DNA of 21,266 nt, taken from a virus. This document shows, piece after piece, positions 1,893 through 21,266 of this stretch. Under the pieces are notes generated by a model, which was not told where the DNA came from, did not search any database, and worked only from the letters and a program-made list of their open reading frames with translations. The stretch lies in the IMG/VR virus record IMGVR_UViG_3300030061_003608, positions 1 to 21,266 of that record; one strand, written 5' to 3'. The first letter of the stretch is position 1. Each line of letters opens with the position of its first letter. The translations under genes and the position numbers were made by a program.

Positions 1893-2211
1893 AACAGACA
1901 TATATAACGCATTTAAAGATAGTGTCGGTGGTGATTCTGATAATATAGATACACTAGCTCAAGCTTTAGAAGATGCTATGGTTAAATTTATGAAAGCACA
2001 AGAACTGAAAATTACCGAGTTGGAAGCTCCATATAATATATTACCTGGTCAGATTAATGTGGTCGGTGCTAGTGGACCAAGTTCTAGTACAGCACCTGTA
2101 AAAGGTATAGTTCAGGTAAGTGAAACATCTAATAAGGTGATGGATGGTAAAGTACCAGCAGGTGTAAATAAATCTAAAGTGATAGCTAAAAAAATTAAGG
2201 GATTAGGTTAA
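1882..2211 (+). CDS. Small hypothetical tail protein, GTG start
   Basis: The 109-residue frame begins with GTG at 1882, overlapping the previous gene by 11 bases. The next in-frame ATG (1978, residue 33) would remove the ordered N-terminal helix GLKTDIYNAFKDSVGG, so GTG is the better start. The upstream AAAAGG is a weak, distant ribosome binding site, so translation probably depends on coupling to the gene before. Residues 2-55 are helical with acidic patches. Residues 55-75 are Pro/Gly/Ser rich (PGQINVVGASGPSSSTAP), followed by a basic C-terminus (KSKVIAKKIKGLG). No family is recognised. Position next to gp25 and a complete overlapping frame support it as a real virion or assembly protein. 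Confidence 0.7.
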   Translation: MGLKTDIYNAFKDSVGGDSDNIDTLAQALEDAMVKFMKAQELKITELEAPYNILPGQINVVGASGPSSSTAPVKGIVQVSETSNKVMDGKVPAGVNKSKVIAKKIKGLG

Positions 2212-2678
2212 TGGCAATACTTGACAGAAGAAAAGATAGATTTGTAGAAGACCAAGATAAAAGAGTCTCTGTGGGAATAGAGTTTCCTTTTGGAAGAGTT
2301 GGTGGTGGTGATGGATATTTTAAATCAACAAAAACTACTGTTGAATCTATAAAAAATAATATTAAACTTCTTTTACAAACTCATAGGGGTGAAAGAGTAT
2401 TTCAACCAAACTTAGGTATGGATTTAAGGTCACTTATATTTGAACCATTAACTGAAGATATTACAATACAAATAGAAAATAATATTGTAGATGTATTCAG
2501 TAGGTGGCTTCCTTTTGTAGATTTAAGAAACATTAATGTTAATCGCAGAGATGATTTAAATCAAGTGAATATTAATATAGATTTTAACATAAGAAGGGCA
2601 CCAAATAGTTTAGAAAGTGTTCAAGTTACATTTGATGGTGTAGGTGCTGGAAACAGTACAAGTAATGGAGCATACTAA
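2211..2678 (+). CDS. 25: Baseplate wedge protein, gp25-like (GPW/gp25 family)
   Basis: The 155-residue product matches the GPW/gp25 family, a sheath-proximal wedge component that starts sheath polymerisation in T4 and has relatives in P2 (gpW) and type VI secretion (TssE). The core motif is clear: helix IKNNIKLLLQTHRGERVFQP, then NLGMDLRSLIFEP at about residues 64-76, where the Glu-Arg of RGERVF is the family hallmark. A helix (ENNIVDVFSRWLPFVDL) and two closing strands (NQVNINIDFNIR) follow. It is slightly longer than T4 gp25 (132 residues) because of an N-terminal extension. An AAGGGA ribosome binding site (2197..2202) sits 8 nt before the ATG, and the start overlaps the previous stop. The immediately following gp6 homologue confirms the assignment. 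Confidence 0.95.
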   Translation: MAILDRRKDRFVEDQDKRVSVGIEFPFGRVGGGDGYFKSTKTTVESIKNNIKLLLQTHRGERVFQPNLGMDLRSLIFEPLTEDITIQIENNIVDVFSRWLPFVDLRNINVNRRDDLNQVNINIDFNIRRAPNSLESVQVTFDGVGAGNSTSNGAY

Positions 2679-4600
2679 TGGCATATACAGAAAAACAAAA
2701 AATAAAACCAACTAATGTACAATATACAAGTAAAGACTTTAGTTCAATAAAATCTGATTTAATTGAATATACTAAATCTTATTTTCCTGATACATATAAA
2801 GATTTTAATGAAACATCACCTGGTATGATGCTAATAGAGTTATCAAGTTATGTAGGTGATGTTCTTTCTTATTATATTGATTATAATTACAAAGAAAACT
2901 TGTTATCAACGGCAACAGAGAAAAGAAACATTCGTAGATTATCAGAGTTCTTAGGATACAAACCCGTTAATAAAACACCATCTGTTGCAAAACTAAAAAT
3001 AGAAACAACCATAAATGCTGATGGGACAACTGGTCAACCTAATTATGGCGAAGCACCATCTTCAATAGATAGTGGTTTACAAATTGCTTCGAATGTAGAT
3101 AGTGAAATTCTATTTGAGACTACCGAAGAAGTTGATTTCACATCAAGTGGATCAGGTGATCCTATTATAAGTGCGCCATCTCTTGACTCTAATGGAGAAG
3201 CTAGTTCATATACTTTGACACGATTTGTACGAGCTATATCTGGTCAGACAAAAACAAAAACATTTAATATTTCAAGTCCTACTAAATTTTTAGAATTGGA
3301 TTTAGGTGAAAGTGATTTAATTGAAATAACAAGTTGTATAGATGGTGCTGGACAAAAGTGGTATGAAGTAGATTATTTAGCACAAGATAAAATTTTAAAA
3401 CAAACTCATTATACAGATGATTCTACAAGAACAAGTGCTTATGACCAAGGTAATGCTGATAGTACTACATCATCGATACCTATTCCATATGTTGCTGAAT
3501 ACATAAAGTCTACTAAAAAATTTACAACTAAGTTCGATGAGGACACTCAAACATATAAAGCTTGTTTTGGTAATGGATTGTTTAGGTTTAGTAATTCTGG
3601 TTCAAATGTAGATCCTGTTGAACAAGCCGGTGTGACAATTAATGGAACTAATCTTGCTGATGTTCCAAGTGCTTTAGGAGTTGTAGTTGGTAATAATCCA
3701 AATTTAGGAGAAACACCATCAAATACTTCATTAACATTTACTTACAGAGTTGGTGGTGGTGCTAGTTCAAATGTTCAAGCTGGAGAACTTAATGTTATAA
3801 ATAATGCTCCAGAAGGTGTATCGATAACCGTATCAAACGAAGAACCTACAACTGGTGGAACAGATGGACAAACTGTTGAAGAAATAAGAAATAACGCTAG
3901 TTCGTTTTTTGCTTCCCAAATGAGATGTGTAACTAAAGAAGATTATCAGTCAAGAATATTATCTCTTCCACAAAAGTTTGGTAGTATTGCTAAATGTATT
4001 GTGGAAAGACTAGATGGTGGTGCTTTATTAGTTCACACTCTTTCTTACAATCAAAATAAACAACTTGTACAAACACCAGAGTTAGTATTACAGAATATAG
4101 GAACTTACATAAATCAATATAGAATGATAAATGACCAAGTTGGATTTGGATTTACTATTCCTGATAACAACGGAACAACATTTTCTGGTTACGTAATTAA
4201 CTTTGGAGTTCGTTTTGTTGTTAATTATGATAGAAGGTCAAATTCTACCGAAGTTAAATTAAATGTAATTCAAGTAATTAAAGATTTCTTTAAGATAGAG
4301 AAGATGCAGTTTAGACAATCAATTAACATGAACGATTTACAATATAACATCTTAGGATTAGATGGTGTAATCGGTATTAAGGAATTAAAATTATTTCAAG
4401 ATGGAAATAATGAATATGCTAGTGGTAGAAAGTTATACTACTATAAAGGGGATGGTGAGATTATTGGAACAGATAGTAATTATGGATTTAAATACAATTT
4501 CGATAACGCTTTACGAGATGGTGTTATAAGACCATCAGTTTCTTCTGCTATATTTGAATTACGAGATCCTAACCAAGATATTTATGGGAAGGTAATATAA
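2678..4600 (+). CDS. 6: Baseplate wedge protein, gp6-like (baseplate J family)
   Basis: This 640-residue product is close in length to T4 gp6 (660), which dimerises to join neighbouring wedges into the hexagonal baseplate. The N-terminus (residues about 15-95) has the typical gp6 signature: YTSKDFSSIKSDLIEYTKSY, FNETSPGMMLIELSSYVGDV, then YKENLLSTATEKRNIRRLSE and FLGYKP. Residues about 340-430 carry the gpJ-type core: FTYRVGGGASSNVQAGEL, GGTDGQTVEEIRNNASSFFA and RCVTKEDYQSRI. The C-terminal third (about 500-640) is a mixed alpha/beta domain ending in IYGKVI. A GGAG ribosome binding site (2667..2670) lies 7 nt before the ATG, inside the gp25 gene, and the start overlaps the gp25 stop. No truncation or odd residues are seen. 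Confidence 0.95.
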   Translation: MAYTEKQKIKPTNVQYTSKDFSSIKSDLIEYTKSYFPDTYKDFNETSPGMMLIELSSYVGDVLSYYIDYNYKENLLSTATEKRNIRRLSEFLGYKPVNKTPSVAKLKIETTINADGTTGQPNYGEAPSSIDSGLQIASNVDSEILFETTEEVDFTSSGSGDPIISAPSLDSNGEASSYTLTRFVRAISGQTKTKTFNISSPTKFLELDLGESDLIEITSCIDGAGQKWYEVDYLAQDKILKQTHYTDDSTRTSAYDQGNADSTTSSIPIPYVAEYIKSTKKFTTKFDEDTQTYKACFGNGLFRFSNSGSNVDPVEQAGVTINGTNLADVPSALGVVVGNNPNLGETPSNTSLTFTYRVGGGASSNVQAGELNVINNAPEGVSITVSNEEPTTGGTDGQTVEEIRNNASSFFASQMRCVTKEDYQSRILSLPQKFGSIAKCIVERLDGGALLVHTLSYNQNKQLVQTPELVLQNIGTYINQYRMINDQVGFGFTIPDNNGTTFSGYVINFGVRFVVNYDRRSNSTEVKLNVIQVIKDFFKIEKMQFRQSINMNDLQYNILGLDGVIGIKELKLFQDGNNEYASGRKLYYYKGDGEIIGTDSNYGFKYNFDNALRDGVIRPSVSSAIFELRDPNQDIYGKVI

Positions 4601-7548: not shown

Positions 7549-8664
7549 ATGGCTGAAGGTACAGGAAATACACAACAAGGACAACAAGATTCTGGTGGTG
7601 GATTTGAATCTACAAATCCATTCGTAGAGGTTCAATTTACAGATACCTCTAGTGGAGCAGATAGTGTTCTTTGGAATTTTGGGGATGGTAATGCATCTAC
7701 TGAAAGAAATCCAAAACATAAATTTTATGAAAATGGTAATTACAATGTTACTTTAACGGTAACTAATTCTGCTGGAGAAGCAATATCTCAAGAATCTGTG
7801 CAGGTAAATGGTATTGGTCAAGATTCAGTTCCCTTAACAGAAGAAGATCCACCTATTGATGAACAAGGTACTGAAGAAGAAGAAATAATATATGGATGTA
7901 CAGATCCTACTGCTACTAATTATGATGCAAATGCTACTCAGGATAATGGTAGTTGTCAATATGAGCCTGAAGAGGATTCGGTTTATATAGAACCGAAACC
8001 AACAAGTCCACCTACTGGATATAATCCAGCAATGAATATATTACAAATTGGCACTATGAGCTTTAAAAAAATGTGGGAATGGGATGGTTTTAATTGGGTA
8101 TTTGGTTACTTACATCCAGATTATACATCAAATACGGATACATCAGGTGATGATGCATCAGGCGATGATAGTGATACAACAGGTGATACATCACCTAAAT
8201 ATTCATATAATTTAGAGGGACAATTAAATAACAGACAATACAATTCGATAAATAATACCACAAGTCTGTTTATAGTGTTAAATGCTGTTAACAGTCCAGG
8301 TCTAATTCCTCAGATTCAAAATTATGTGAATGTGTCAAACGCTATAAGAATTAACGGATCTTTTAGTACAATTACTAATTTCGAATATAATTCATCTGAT
8401 AATAGTGGTAGAATTACTATTCAAGGGAATATGGGAAATAGTAGTGCTTCCGATGTTAATCCAACAACCGCATACAACTTTGAAATGATTATAGAAAGTG
8501 ATACTGAATTAGATGCAAACACAAGTGGAAACACCAGCGGAGATACAGGTGGAGATACTGGTGGAGATGATGGTATTCGTGGATGTACAGATCCTCAAGC
8601 TGATAACTTCAATAGATTTGCTACCATAGATGATGGTAGTTGTGAATACTCATCTGGATATTAA
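7549..8664 (+). CDS. Virion protein with PKD domain and two cysteine-bounded repeats
   Basis: The 371-residue protein has a clear PKD (Ig-like) domain at residues 23-88: NPFVEVQFTDTSSG, the hallmark WNFGDG at 42-47, then HKFYENGNYNVTLTVTNSAG. An acidic linker leads to a 23-residue cysteine-bounded repeat (116-138: begins GCTDPTATNY, ends DNGSCQY). The central part has WEWDGFNWVFGYLHPDY, then an Asp/Ser/Gly/Thr linker (SGDDASGDDSD), a beta domain (about 205-325), a second low-complexity linker (GNTSGDTGGDTGGDDG) and a second copy of the cysteine repeat at 345-367, almost at the C-terminus. PKD domains and such repeats are typical of extracellular adhesins. AGGAG at 7538..7542 is 6 nt before the ATG. 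The protein shares its N-terminal leader with its upstream neighbour. It is probably a baseplate-attached adhesin; that role is inferred. Confidence 0.75.
   Translation: MAEGTGNTQQGQQDSGGGFESTNPFVEVQFTDTSSGADSVLWNFGDGNASTERNPKHKFYENGNYNVTLTVTNSAGEAISQESVQVNGIGQDSVPLTEEDPPIDEQGTEEEEIIYGCTDPTATNYDANATQDNGSCQYEPEEDSVYIEPKPTSPPTGYNPAMNILQIGTMSFKKMWEWDGFNWVFGYLHPDYTSNTDTSGDDASGDDSDTTGDTSPKYSYNLEGQLNNRQYNSINNTTSLFIVLNAVNSPGLIPQIQNYVNVSNAIRINGSFSTITNFEYNSSDNSGRITIQGNMGNSSASDVNPTTAYNFEMIIESDTELDANTSGNTSGDTGGDTGGDDGIRGCTDPQADNFNRFATIDDGSCEYSSGY
7894..7962 (+). repeat. Cysteine-bounded repeat, copy 1
   Basis: This 23-codon unit begins GCTDPTATNYDANAT and ends GSCQY. Its first 15 bases (GGATGTACAGATCCT) are identical to those of copy 2 at 8581. 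The paired cysteines probably form a disulfide or bind a metal around a small acidic loop. Similar units occur in surface proteins of Bacteroidota. Confidence 0.75.
8581..8649 (+). repeat. Cysteine-bounded repeat, copy 2
   Basis: This second 23-codon unit begins GCTDPQADNFNRFAT and ends GSCEY, four residues before the protein ends. It has the same length and spacing as copy 1, with identical GGATGTACAGATCCT and GATGGTAGTTGT-like ends, so it arose by duplication. Confidence 0.75.
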
Positions 8665-10856
8665 TGGCTATTTTTACAAAAGCAGAGGACTTGTTTGGGT
8701 TATTTAATCAATCAGTTGGTGGTGGTGCAATAGAGGGTGGACAACCAGGATATGAAACTAGAAGATTTTTTCAACCTAAAGTTGGATTAGATGCTATAGT
8801 TAAAAATCCAGGATATTTAGATACTTCCGAAGATAAACCTTATCCAACTGATGTAGTTAGTTATAATGACAGAAGACAAATTTTAGGGACTATTACTTTA
8901 AACAATAGAGATTGGTGGGAAAATAGTAACTATGATAAAACATCATTTCAACCTTATTTAACTGATGAAAAAAAAATTGTTTTTAATCAACAAGTTAAGA
9001 TTGATGGAAGTGGGAATAAAATTATAGTTAATGAAGATAGAGATAAATCTGGTTTCTTTAAATTTTCTATTGATGCTGCACCTTTCGTAATAAATCCAAA
9101 TACAGATGAGATTGTAAGATTAGATAGATATTACGATAAAGATATAGATACTGAAAAATATAATTTAGCAACCGAAGGTAAGATAAACTATTATATTTAC
9201 CCACGAGGTGATGCCAGAACACCAGCTGGTAACATAGATACATTTAAATCTAAAGGTAAAAAAACAGATGCTGGTGAGAATGTGTTTGATAGATATGCTA
9301 GAAATCCAAATTCTACTCGTGGTTATCACCTTTTTCATTTGGATTGGGGTGATGGAACTCCTTTAGAACATATAAGAGAAACTAAAGTTTTAGAAGGAAA
9401 TACTTTGTTAGAACACATATACGAAAAACCAGGATTTTATACAATCAAAGGTGTGGTTATGGCATTTGATGGTGATGAAATAGGTTGTTGGGAAAAATTT
9501 GAAACAAATTTTTTACTTAATCCATCTCCTAATTATGATGTTGATTTATATGATTACGAAAACTTTGCTACAATAGGTGGTATAAGCAATGATTCTGTTT
9601 TGGTAAAATCAGCAACAGATATTATTGGAATTAATCCTTTAACATTTGATGATGAAAAGTCTTCTGTTAAATTAGTAGAAAATATTAATTTGTTTGATAG
9701 GTTAAGTATATATAATTTTTTAACAAAGATTGACCATACGATACTTAATGAATACCTATCTGATTTTGATGATTACACTAAAGAGATAACTGATGAACCT
9801 GGTCCTATGATGATGGATGGTGAAATCATAGGGTGTTTAGATCCACAGGCTTTAAATTACGATCCTAATGCTGAACGAGATATTACTGTTGGGAGTATAT
9901 GTGATTATGGTTTAACATTGAAAATAGTAGCACCTACTTTTGTAAATAGATTAGGAGAGAATGATCCGAATGCTCCAAATTTTCATATCGACCTATACCT
10001 TGTAAATGATACCGAAAGTATATTAGGTAGTATTCCAGAAGATAATCCTTATTATTTAGATTCACCAAAAGTTTTACAAGGTCAACCTGATTTACAAAAC
10101 GGTTATACCGGAACTGAAACTCTTCCAATTGGAGCTCAAAATCCATTTTATGCAATTGGTAGAAAATTAGCATATCAACAGGCATTAGGAGAGGATTGGA
10201 TTAACTATGATGCAATTGATAGTAATTCAACAAAGAAAACTGTTCAGACCAATCCTACCAATTCAAGTAATAAAACTAGAAATATAACAAAAAGTCAATT
10301 ACTAAATGCTAAAAGGATTCTTATTGGTGTAAGAGCTCCAGAAACAGGTGGCGGTCAAGGTTCTCAAACCACAGTTGCAGTAGAGTCATTTAGTTTTGAT
10401 GTAGAAGCCGTTCCACATTCATCGGAAGATGCACAAGCGTTGGGTAGAAACTTACCAATATTAAGTTCTAATGATGTAAATAATATTTATGATAATGTAT
10501 CATCAACTCGTTCAGGCGATCCATATGAAATATTGTATAGTAATTATTTTCATCCAACTAAAGGTGCAATTAATTTGAGAAAAACAAATGGATCCGGAGA
10601 GATATTAACAGGTTGGTTTTATAAGCTAGGTCAACAATTACCAGTAAACGAATTTGGTAATAGACAACGAACTGGAGTAGCAAGTGATTGGGTAGTTACT
10701 AAAGATAAAATAAATTTTTTAGAATTGGATATAAGTGAACTTCAAGATGCTGGAGCTACTGATGAAAATGGTTTGAATGGAACATATAATATAAATTTCA
10801 ATCTTACATACACACAATCTGATGGTGGTAGTACAGGTAATATTACTGGACCGTAG
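8664..10856 (+). CDS. Virion protein with PKD-like domain and one cysteine-bounded repeat
   Basis: The 730-residue product starts in a TAATG overlap with no obvious ribosome binding site, so it is probably translated by coupling. Residues 1-210 are an uncharacterised N-terminal part with aromatic clusters (NNRDWWENSNY) and KINYYIYPRGDA. Residues about 218-282 form a PKD-like domain: LFHLDWGDGTPLEH (W228, G229, D230, G231), then EHIYEKPGFYTIKGVV, the usual closing H-Y-x-x-x-G-x-Y-x-V pattern. Residues 390-415 are a variant of the cysteine repeat (GCLDPQALNYDPNAE, ending CDY), with three extra residues. The C-terminal 300 residues include a beta domain (ILIGVRAPETGGGQGSQTTV, SFSFDVEAV). The sharing of PKD and Cys repeat with the previous gene points to common ancestry or domain exchange. 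A virion adhesin or adaptor is the likely role, inferred from domains and position. Confidence 0.7.
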   Translation: MAIFTKAEDLFGLFNQSVGGGAIEGGQPGYETRRFFQPKVGLDAIVKNPGYLDTSEDKPYPTDVVSYNDRRQILGTITLNNRDWWENSNYDKTSFQPYLTDEKKIVFNQQVKIDGSGNKIIVNEDRDKSGFFKFSIDAAPFVINPNTDEIVRLDRYYDKDIDTEKYNLATEGKINYYIYPRGDARTPAGNIDTFKSKGKKTDAGENVFDRYARNPNSTRGYHLFHLDWGDGTPLEHIRETKVLEGNTLLEHIYEKPGFYTIKGVVMAFDGDEIGCWEKFETNFLLNPSPNYDVDLYDYENFATIGGISNDSVLVKSATDIIGINPLTFDDEKSSVKLVENINLFDRLSIYNFLTKIDHTILNEYLSDFDDYTKEITDEPGPMMMDGEIIGCLDPQALNYDPNAERDITVGSICDYGLTLKIVAPTFVNRLGENDPNAPNFHIDLYLVNDTESILGSIPEDNPYYLDSPKVLQGQPDLQNGYTGTETLPIGAQNPFYAIGRKLAYQQALGEDWINYDAIDSNSTKKTVQTNPTNSSNKTRNITKSQLLNAKRILIGVRAPETGGGQGSQTTVAVESFSFDVEAVPHSSEDAQALGRNLPILSSNDVNNIYDNVSSTRSGDPYEILYSNYFHPTKGAINLRKTNGSGEILTGWFYKLGQQLPVNEFGNRQRTGVASDWVVTKDKINFLELDISELQDAGATDENGLNGTYNINFNLTYTQSDGGSTGNITGP
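9831..9908 (+). repeat. Cysteine-bounded repeat, divergent copy 3
   Basis: This 26-codon unit in the second PKD gene keeps G-C-x-D-P-Q-A, N-Y-D, N-A and the final C-D-Y of copies 1 and 2. It carries a three-residue insertion and lacks the exact GSC triplet (GSIC instead). Confidence 0.65.
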
Positions 10857-20364: not shown

Positions 20365-20381
20365 TGTCATGGAATGTTTAA
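20364..20381 (+). other. Five-codon minicistron at the paralogue A/B junction
   Basis: The TAATG overlap typical of this operon is present here too, but the frame it opens (MSWNV) stops after five codons. The true start of the next gene lies 10 bases downstream in another frame, inside this mini-frame. It could be a relic of a start-region indel or a coupling device. Confidence 0.4.
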
Positions 20382-21186
20382 ACAATTTACATCTGAAAAT
20401 CAGAACACTTACGACTGGAAAGCACATAAGTCATTTACTTTAAGTCAAGATAGTGTTACACGACATCAGTTTATAAAAGATTCGTCTAATGCAATATCTA
20501 AAAGTTATTATGATTTTGCTCGTATAAATTTTTATCTTAGCGGTTCTACATCAGATGAATATGGTAGTCAATTTACTATAGGAAAAGATGGTTCTGGTAG
20601 AGATACCTTTTTAACAAAGTTTTATAATGAAGGTTCAATAGTTTTCATTCCACAAAATAAATTTGACGAAGGAATAAAAAGAGGTAGTTTTCAGTTAATA
20701 GATAATGAGACAAGTGCTATTATCGTAGATGATAGCAACGGAAATCTTTATTCTACAAATGCTACTTTTTCACAGTCGGTGTCGGCACTATCATCATCCG
20801 ACAACTATGTAGGAAATATTTTTTATGATGTAGGGGTTGTTACTCTTACTGAAACTGCTTCTTTTAATGGTTCAGATGACTATACAGATGTTACAAGTGG
20901 TAATTATACAATTACTTATAAAGGAACAACTGTAATAAATACTTATGAATGGACATGTGATACTCAAACAAATGAGTTAAACGATACGACTAATATGACT
21001 GTTTTTCATTCAAATGGATTAGGTCAGTTAAAAGATAATTTGACTGGAAGTAATTTTCCAACTTATATATCTGAAATTGGATTATATGATGACCAACAGA
21101 GTTTAGTGGGGTATGCTAGATTATCAAAACCTATACCTAAGAGTCAAAAAATACCGATGAAATTTCTATTAAGATTAGATTATTAA
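20374..21186 (+). CDS. Virion structural protein, paralogue B of a tandem pair
   Basis: The 270-residue product is homologous to the protein just upstream: GSFQLIDNETSAIIVDDSNG matches its GTWTLTL and TDDSKTVD blocks, VGNIFYDVGVVTL matches YGFFYPDAGLMVF, and YISEIGLYDDQQSLVGYARL matches FISEVGLYDNQNSLVAVGRL. Both end in R-L-x-Y. The N-terminus (MFKQFTSENQNTYDWKAHKS) is different. The ATG at 20374 has no ribosome binding site at a normal distance. A five-codon frame opens at 20364 from the previous stop, so initiation probably relies on ribosomes ending there. One Cys is seen, in YEWTCDTQ. The function is unknown; the protein could form a mixed complex with paralogue A. Confidence 0.7.
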   Translation: MFKQFTSENQNTYDWKAHKSFTLSQDSVTRHQFIKDSSNAISKSYYDFARINFYLSGSTSDEYGSQFTIGKDGSGRDTFLTKFYNEGSIVFIPQNKFDEGIKRGSFQLIDNETSAIIVDDSNGNLYSTNATFSQSVSALSSSDNYVGNIFYDVGVVTLTETASFNGSDDYTDVTSGNYTITYKGTTVINTYEWTCDTQTNELNDTTNMTVFHSNGLGQLKDNLTGSNFPTYISEIGLYDDQQSLVGYARLSKPIPKSQKIPMKFLLRLDY

Positions 21187-21215
21187 TTATATTTATAAGT
21201 AACGGGAGAAATAAA
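21187..21215 (+). promoter_or_regulatory. Intergenic gap with TATATTTATA motif and strong ribosome binding site
   Basis: This 29-base gap contains TATATTTATA at 21188..21197, the same 10-mer as in the gap before 18636, here 18 nt before the ATG. GGGAG at 21204..21208 is 7 nt before the start and is one of the better ribosome binding sites in the window. If the AT-box is a late promoter, the cysteine-rich gene would have its own short leader. Confidence 0.35.
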
Positions 21216-21266
21216 ATGTGTAATTGTAAACAATGTGATTGTGGTGCTTCATGTGAATGTAAGTGT
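21216..21266 (+). CDS. Cysteine-rich, metallothionein-like protein (3' partial)
   Basis: An ATG with a strong ribosome binding site opens a frame that runs off the right edge after 17 residues: MCNCKQCDCGASCECKC. Seven of the 17 are cysteines (2, 4, 7, 9, 13, 15, 17), arranged as CxC pairs with two- or three-residue spacers. Such CxC clusters are the hallmark of metallothioneins, small cytoplasmic proteins that bind Zn, Cu or Cd through thiolates. Every other protein in the window is nearly Cys-free apart from the CxDP repeats, so the composition is striking. It does not match the bacterial SmtA/BmtA pattern exactly, as far as the fragment shows. Alternatives are the start of a longer Cys-rich or Zn-binding protein. 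The gene follows late structural genes, so it would probably be expressed late. Metal binding is inferred. Confidence 0.6.
   Translation, partial: MCNCKQCDCGASCECKC

Follow-up and report, generated by a model that had tools for sequence, protein, structure and literature searches.

Does the reading frame that closes this stretch of viral DNA mark a real gene, how long is its product, and what could a phage gain from it? The window, the 21,266-base IMG/VR fragment analyzed here at its full length, breaks off within a frame rich in cysteine codons, which a first-pass annotation had read as the start of a phage-encoded metallothionein-like gene. We followed this frame into related and unrelated viruses and weighed the functions that such a peptide might have.

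A cysteine-rich frame behind virion genes

The frame is located on the plus strand at 21216..21266 and represents the 5' part (17 codons) of a micro-ORF that is truncated at the contig end. Its translation, MCNCKQCDCGASCECKC, contains 7 Cys in 17 residues arranged in four CxC steps, as originally described. A GGGAG Shine-Dalgarno (SD)-like site is present at 21204..21208 on the same strand, 7 nt upstream of the ATG at 21216, again in agreement with the first-pass annotation. The AT-box that had also been noted upstream (TATAAGTA, 21194-21201), a T4 late-promoter-like box, could not be substantiated, as such boxes occur at chance level (12 matches vs. 9.2 expected).

The ATG follows the stop codon of a 270-aa ORF (20374..21186, plus strand) after 29 nt, which agrees with the assigned location behind virion genes. 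We infer from its position after the baseplate block that the 270-aa gene encodes a virion protein, probably of fibre or appendage type. The protein matched no Pfam or PHROGs family, and its C-terminal residues are similar to those encoded by the preceding 355-aa gene. The baseplate wedge genes, gp25-like and gp6-like (2211..4600, plus strand; PHROGs 261/43 and 10646/6/219), identify a contractile-tailed, T4-type virion module, so that the label of a T4-like phage was well chosen. In tblastn they matched baseplate wedge proteins of Flavobacterium phage immuto, and their relatedness to this phage and to a Microcystis phage is 30-34%. An exact back-translated search of viral contigs with the peptide start found no second copy of the window virus.

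The remaining genes of the window are Cys-poor, with 21 Cys in 6,835 aa (0.31%), and seven Cys within 16 residues are therefore far outside their composition. The binomial probability of at least 7 Cys in 16 residues is ~3e-14 at this frequency and 6e-8 when calculated from base composition. Several of the rare cysteines are held by GCxDPxAxNYDxxAxxxxGSC-like repeats in two proteins encoded among the virion genes (7549-8664 and 8664-10856). The first of these, a 371-aa protein, also has a PKD domain (PF18911, E 1e-14).

Micro-ORFs in other viruses and the length of the window gene

The first search anchor was the window's 270-aa protein. Since loci were retrieved through this neighboring gene, they were not selected for cysteine. 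Thirteen of the close relatives (L002-L017) carry a Cys-rich micro-ORF with an ATG start and 14-23 codons, located between genes on the coding strand. Examples are MCECENCNCDCCCK (L009), MCECKNCKCNESCGCGNCNC (L003), MCDCCGCDCNCNCGK (L008), MCNCNDCSCDKCLSGCTCTSCDC (L011), MCKLKCDCCDCCDCCNC (L016) and MKKCDCCDCCNCGCGC (L002). A clear SD precedes the micro-ORF in all of the 13 except L007, and an SD-like site is found upstream of nearly every homologue. The 568 kb of 270-aa-anchor loci contain 281 SD-preceded ORFs of 12-30 aa, 12 of which have at least 35% Cys, while 20 dinucleotide shuffles of these loci yielded none with such a Cys content. When an exported protein of L003 with 430 aa served as another anchor, 14 of 24 loci contained a micro-ORF, several contigs being common to both anchors. 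Here we found short forms of 11 (MCDCTDCGCGK) and 12 residues (MCECENCQCGKK) and the pair MSECGCKDCICNGGCMNCKCCKC / MSECGCKNCNCNGGCMDCKCCKC. Across related phages the micro-ORF occupies several gene slots, and some near relatives, such as L014, lack it beside its usual neighbors. No recognized metal-handling gene was found among these neighbors. Because closed, SD-preceded Cys-rich ORFs recur in the same neighborhood of relatives, the proposed gene start at 21216 is confirmed as genuine. On sequence grounds, we consider it shown that the frame belongs to an SD-preceded, separately translated micro-ORF whose class is maintained among related phages.

Several other genes recur at these loci. An exported protein of 64-65 aa, in which poly-lysine follows a Met-rich stretch (DMxMxxM in several cases), is often encoded right next to the micro-ORF (L003 8769-8963; L004 8779-8973; L009 8825-9019; L016 2510-2707; L182 ~3936-4061), and in L182 the pair recurs in a different gene neighborhood. 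The Met motif is not kept everywhere, and a link to copper is therefore only a guess. A few genes past the micro-ORF, relatives encode an exported 124-aa thioredoxin-fold protein (L003 9663-10037 and equivalents; PF00085, E 8e-4, below cut-off) in which SEW apparently replaces the active-site WCxxC. Large conserved exported proteins with signal-peptide-like starts are encoded directly after the tail genes, namely one of 430 aa in L003 (7390-8682) and one of 289 aa in L092 (2743-3612, minus strand), neither of which matched a Pfam or PHROGs family. An 876-aa neighbor in L092 has a weak T9SS-type tail match, suggesting a Bacteroidota-like host. A 211-aa phage protein with a pilin-like N-terminus (GRSGQSLAEFAVTTAMMATLATTAAPKFSG) is conserved in the group (L003 10235-10870; L004 10458-11093).

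For a broader survey we used a 4-Cys pattern (SD plus MCxCxxCxC), with a codon-swapped, composition-matched control in which GTY replaced TGY. At least 120 viral stretches matched, and among the matches listed 105 of 118 closed frames were no longer than 25 aa (median 18 aa). The control gave 50 matches in total; of its 44 closed frames, only 12 did not exceed 25 aa (median 95 aa). With this yield of the control, the 4-Cys pattern was rejected as sole evidence; some of its matches are chance ones in GC-rich sequence or in frame within a gene. The window-type 6-Cys motif, MCxCxxCxCxxxCxC, was found in nine viral contigs vs. none for its GTY control, and it matched twice in a 257-Gb genome collection. 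One of these two matches, L181, was dismissed as a homologue because it is a chance match, a 9-aa frame within a longer ORF. The other, L182, is a true homologue of 20 aa. Its contig, part of a Flavobacteriales MAG, also encodes a phage-like DNA methylase and may thus be phage DNA binned with the bacterium. A whole-record scan of 12 phage-collection records chosen through neighboring genes revealed no MCxCxxCxC start, and three micro-genes compared with the phage collection by DNA similarity gave short matches at chance level only.

Many virus contigs, related as well as unrelated ones, encode similar peptides of 11-23 residues. The carriers are diverse and include contigs with T4-type modules, one with a terminase ~60% identical to Autographiviridae (L076) and one in which the neighboring cytidylyltransferase is ~40% identical to Kyanoviridae proteins (L060). 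Judging from project numbering and gene content, most source samples were probably marine. A distinct subclass (MCGCNxCNCGCSTINxTD and MCCCVxCKCSCCxNHIxD) has a conserved non-Cys tail. It follows a gene resembling a small heat-shock protein and is present in many near-identical copies on different contigs (L065 3136-3192; L070 ~3536-3592, minus strand; L083, L086, L125, L162, L163, L168).

Codon changes were compared between nearest neighbors, and Cys positions that the search pattern itself prescribes were left out of the count. Of the changes in the remaining Cys codons, 8 were synonymous and 6 were replacements, compared to 15 and 56, respectively, elsewhere (Fisher p 0.017; Cys codons against a 20% synonymous share, binomial p 0.002). 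Although these numbers are small, they have the expected direction, in that Cys appears to be kept while the linkers drift. These data also bear on the notion that the frame is no gene at all, but a chance TGT-rich stretch or a DNA or RNA motif. With 17 codons and a low-complexity TGT-NNN pattern this could be suspected, yet shuffles and codon-swapped controls oppose it, SD and stop are conserved, the ORFs lie between genes and on the coding strand, and the Cys codons differ mainly as TGT/TGC. We therefore regard a chance origin as hardly credible.

Since the window is a fragment and the frame is open at its end, the length and the stop codon of the micro-ORF have to be deduced from relatives. 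The Cys spacing of the window is found exactly in seven of the nine viral contigs with the 6-Cys motif. These comprise four distinct sequences (MCNCKQCNCGSGCGCQCCEC, MCECKECKCGSTCECKCCEC, MCNCKDCKCEESCECKCCVC and MCECKNCKCNESCGCGNCNC), all with 20 codons and a CxC end, and MCNCKQCNCGSGCGCQCCEC and MCECKECKCGSTCECKCCEC are the forms closest to the window peptide. L182 likewise combines the exact spacing with a 20-codon frame, and the other two viral contigs close at 17 (L067) and 16 (L171). As all exact-spacing contigs end at 20 codons, probably no more than three codons of the window gene are missing (CxC, then stop), and not 25-60. It very probably encodes a peptide of ~20 aa with more than 40% Cys. 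The 40-80 codons originally expected are thus too many, given that complete homologues end at 11-23. A stop codon outside the window would in principle also allow a larger protein, such as a zinc-ribbon or fibre-assembly protein with a Cys-rich N-terminus, and a few loose 4-Cys matches do run on to 34-134 aa. This is very unlikely in view of the common end of all seven exact-spacing viral contigs and of two homologues in the window's own slot, L111 and L152. In both, the last fibre-type gene is followed by the micro-ORF (16 and 20 aa, respectively) and then by the gene for a 432-aa exported protein.

Possible functions of the micropeptides

The 62 distinct peptides contain on average 41.5% Cys, connected by linkers that consist chiefly of K, N, E, D, G, S and T. 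Aromatics and His account for 19 of 589 non-Cys residues, as in metallothioneins. In composition (~30% Cys, CxC/CC/CxxC, few or no aromatics) the peptides are metallothionein-like, and this part of the first-pass annotation was correct. The HMM search for metallothionein families that it had recommended assigned no family: six homologues of 20-23 aa gave nothing above cut-off in Pfam and NCBIfam. The best metallothionein HMM was PF12749 (E 0.49, one homologue, 10.8 bits vs. a cut-off of 22), and PHROGs returned no match for six homologues with E up to 10, HMMER being weak on such short sequences. A chain of 14-20 residues that carries 6-9 Cys, is poor in hydrophobic residues and lacks a signal peptide can do little as a fold, and a Cys peptide of 20 residues would have no meaningful apo fold. 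Thiolate clustering of soft metals, on the other hand, is the established chemistry of such Cys-rich sequences.

We favor, with a probability of roughly 0.6, that the window gene encodes a free-standing phage micropeptide acting as a minimal metallothionein. The peptide would be made together with the neighboring late virion genes. Rather than adopting a fold of its own, it would use its CxC/CC thiols to enclose a small polymetallic cluster in the reducing cytoplasm. Cu(I) would be the first candidate metal, with Zn(II) and Cd(II) as alternatives. Soft metal ions would thereby be buffered or sequestered as the phage consumes the infected cell. The phage might benefit by buffering metal freed from degraded host metalloproteins, by withholding metal from the host, or by shielding replication against metal or oxidative stress.

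A very short, SD-preceded ORF that often leaves hardly any space before another gene (its stop codon abuts the following ATG in L005, L008 and L015) could instead encode a leader or attenuator peptide. Translation of the Cys-rich ORF would then sense Cys-tRNA or metal and regulate the downstream gene in cis. That a Cys motif is capable of this is exemplified by CutF, a copper-sensing nascent protein controlling cutO (PMC9973294). However, the downstream gene varies and encodes 430-aa exported, 64-aa Lys-rich, 204-aa lipoprotein-like, 213/218-aa or 126/136-aa proteins. The micro-ORF changes its slot, is present in many phage types and often leaves no space for a stem-loop between the genes, and local RNA folding was ordinary at six loci (z -1.5 to +1.6). 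A CutF-like leader would have a constant regulated gene downstream, with a stem-loop or stall sequence, and this description does not fit the micro-ORFs. Changing slots and downstream genes, together with the ordinary local RNA structure, make a leader peptide unlikely.

Similarly improbable is a role in thiol redox chemistry or cross-linking, in which the Cys residues would donate electrons, absorb oxidants or form disulphide cross-links, for instance in the virion or periplasm. The high Cys content, the Cys-poor proteome (0.31%) and the thioredoxin-fold gene near the micro-ORF in relatives would suit such a role. The lack of a signal peptide does not, and CxC/CC spacing with polar linkers is the layout of a metallothionein. 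Moreover, the Cys count per peptide ranges from 4 to 9 and there is no fixed pair pattern. Short, Cys-rich peptides whose gene position varies between related phages could also be RiPP-like precursors with Cys as modification sites, but 14-20 aa hold no leader region and no modification enzyme was recognized among the neighbors, so that we consider this highly improbable.

A wider generalization of the minimal metallothionein is possible, though we advance it only tentatively. Diverse tailed phages may encode minimal metallothioneins of 11-23 residues that are rapidly gained, lost and moved between slots, as Cys spacing alone would suffice; control of host Cu/Zn would then be common and overlooked in infection. 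Because standard gene callers and HMM libraries leave ORFs of 11-23 codons unnamed, a recurrent phage strategy directed at host metal could stay hidden. A catalogue of small phage genes by Fremin et al. from 2022 reportedly lists thousands of unnamed small genes and may include some of these ORFs, and our literature search found no description of phage metallothioneins. If the proposed function is true, these peptides would rank with the smallest encoded metallothioneins and tie phage infection to trace-metal chemistry. They are cheap to synthesize and test, and they are well suited to the question whether genes of this kind originate de novo time and again.

Comparison with known metal-binding peptides

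The bacterial metallothioneins SmtA/BmtA, PmtA and MymT comprise ~50-80 aa, and many of them contain His and adopt a zinc-finger-like fold. Like these, the phage peptides are small, Cys-rich and presumably cytoplasmic metal-thiolate peptides, but they are shorter, and their homologues have no NCBIfam or Pfam match above cut-off. To our knowledge, peptides of 11-23 residues are below the size of any described bacterial metallothionein. Phytochelatins are made by an enzyme and contain gamma-peptide bonds, and synthetic (Glu-Cys)n peptides have similar units. Both share repeats of an acidic residue plus Cys with the peptide of L082, MCECKQCECESCNCSCCEC. Unlike phytochelatins, the phage peptides are ribosomally encoded.

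Among solved structures, the closest analogue is the copper metallothionein of Neurospora crassa (NcMT), which consists of 25 aa with 7 Cys and binds six Cu(I) (PMC7614390; PDB 1t2y), which indicates that the size of the phage peptides would be sufficient. NcMT and the phage peptides are alike in size, in seven Cys, in CxC pairs and in linkers poor in hydrophobics and aromatics, and CNCGSGCGC of L161 is nearly identical to CNCGSGCSC of NcMT. The linkers are Gly/Ser-rich in NcMT, whereas they are charged (K/E/D/N) in the phage peptides, and the Cys spacing is CxC-5-CxC-3-CxC-2-C in NcMT compared to CxC-2-CxC-3-CxCxC in the window. A phmmer search with L161 against the PDB returned 0 matches and does not place it in the NcMT type. 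Against shuffles, the alignment with NcMT gave p 0.0015 for L161 and 0.02 for the window and was not significant for several other members. Since family cut-offs were missed and the similarity to NcMT is not database-significant, we describe the peptide as one that would work like a metallothionein rather than as a family member. The likeness to NcMT is likelier to reflect convergence than descent.
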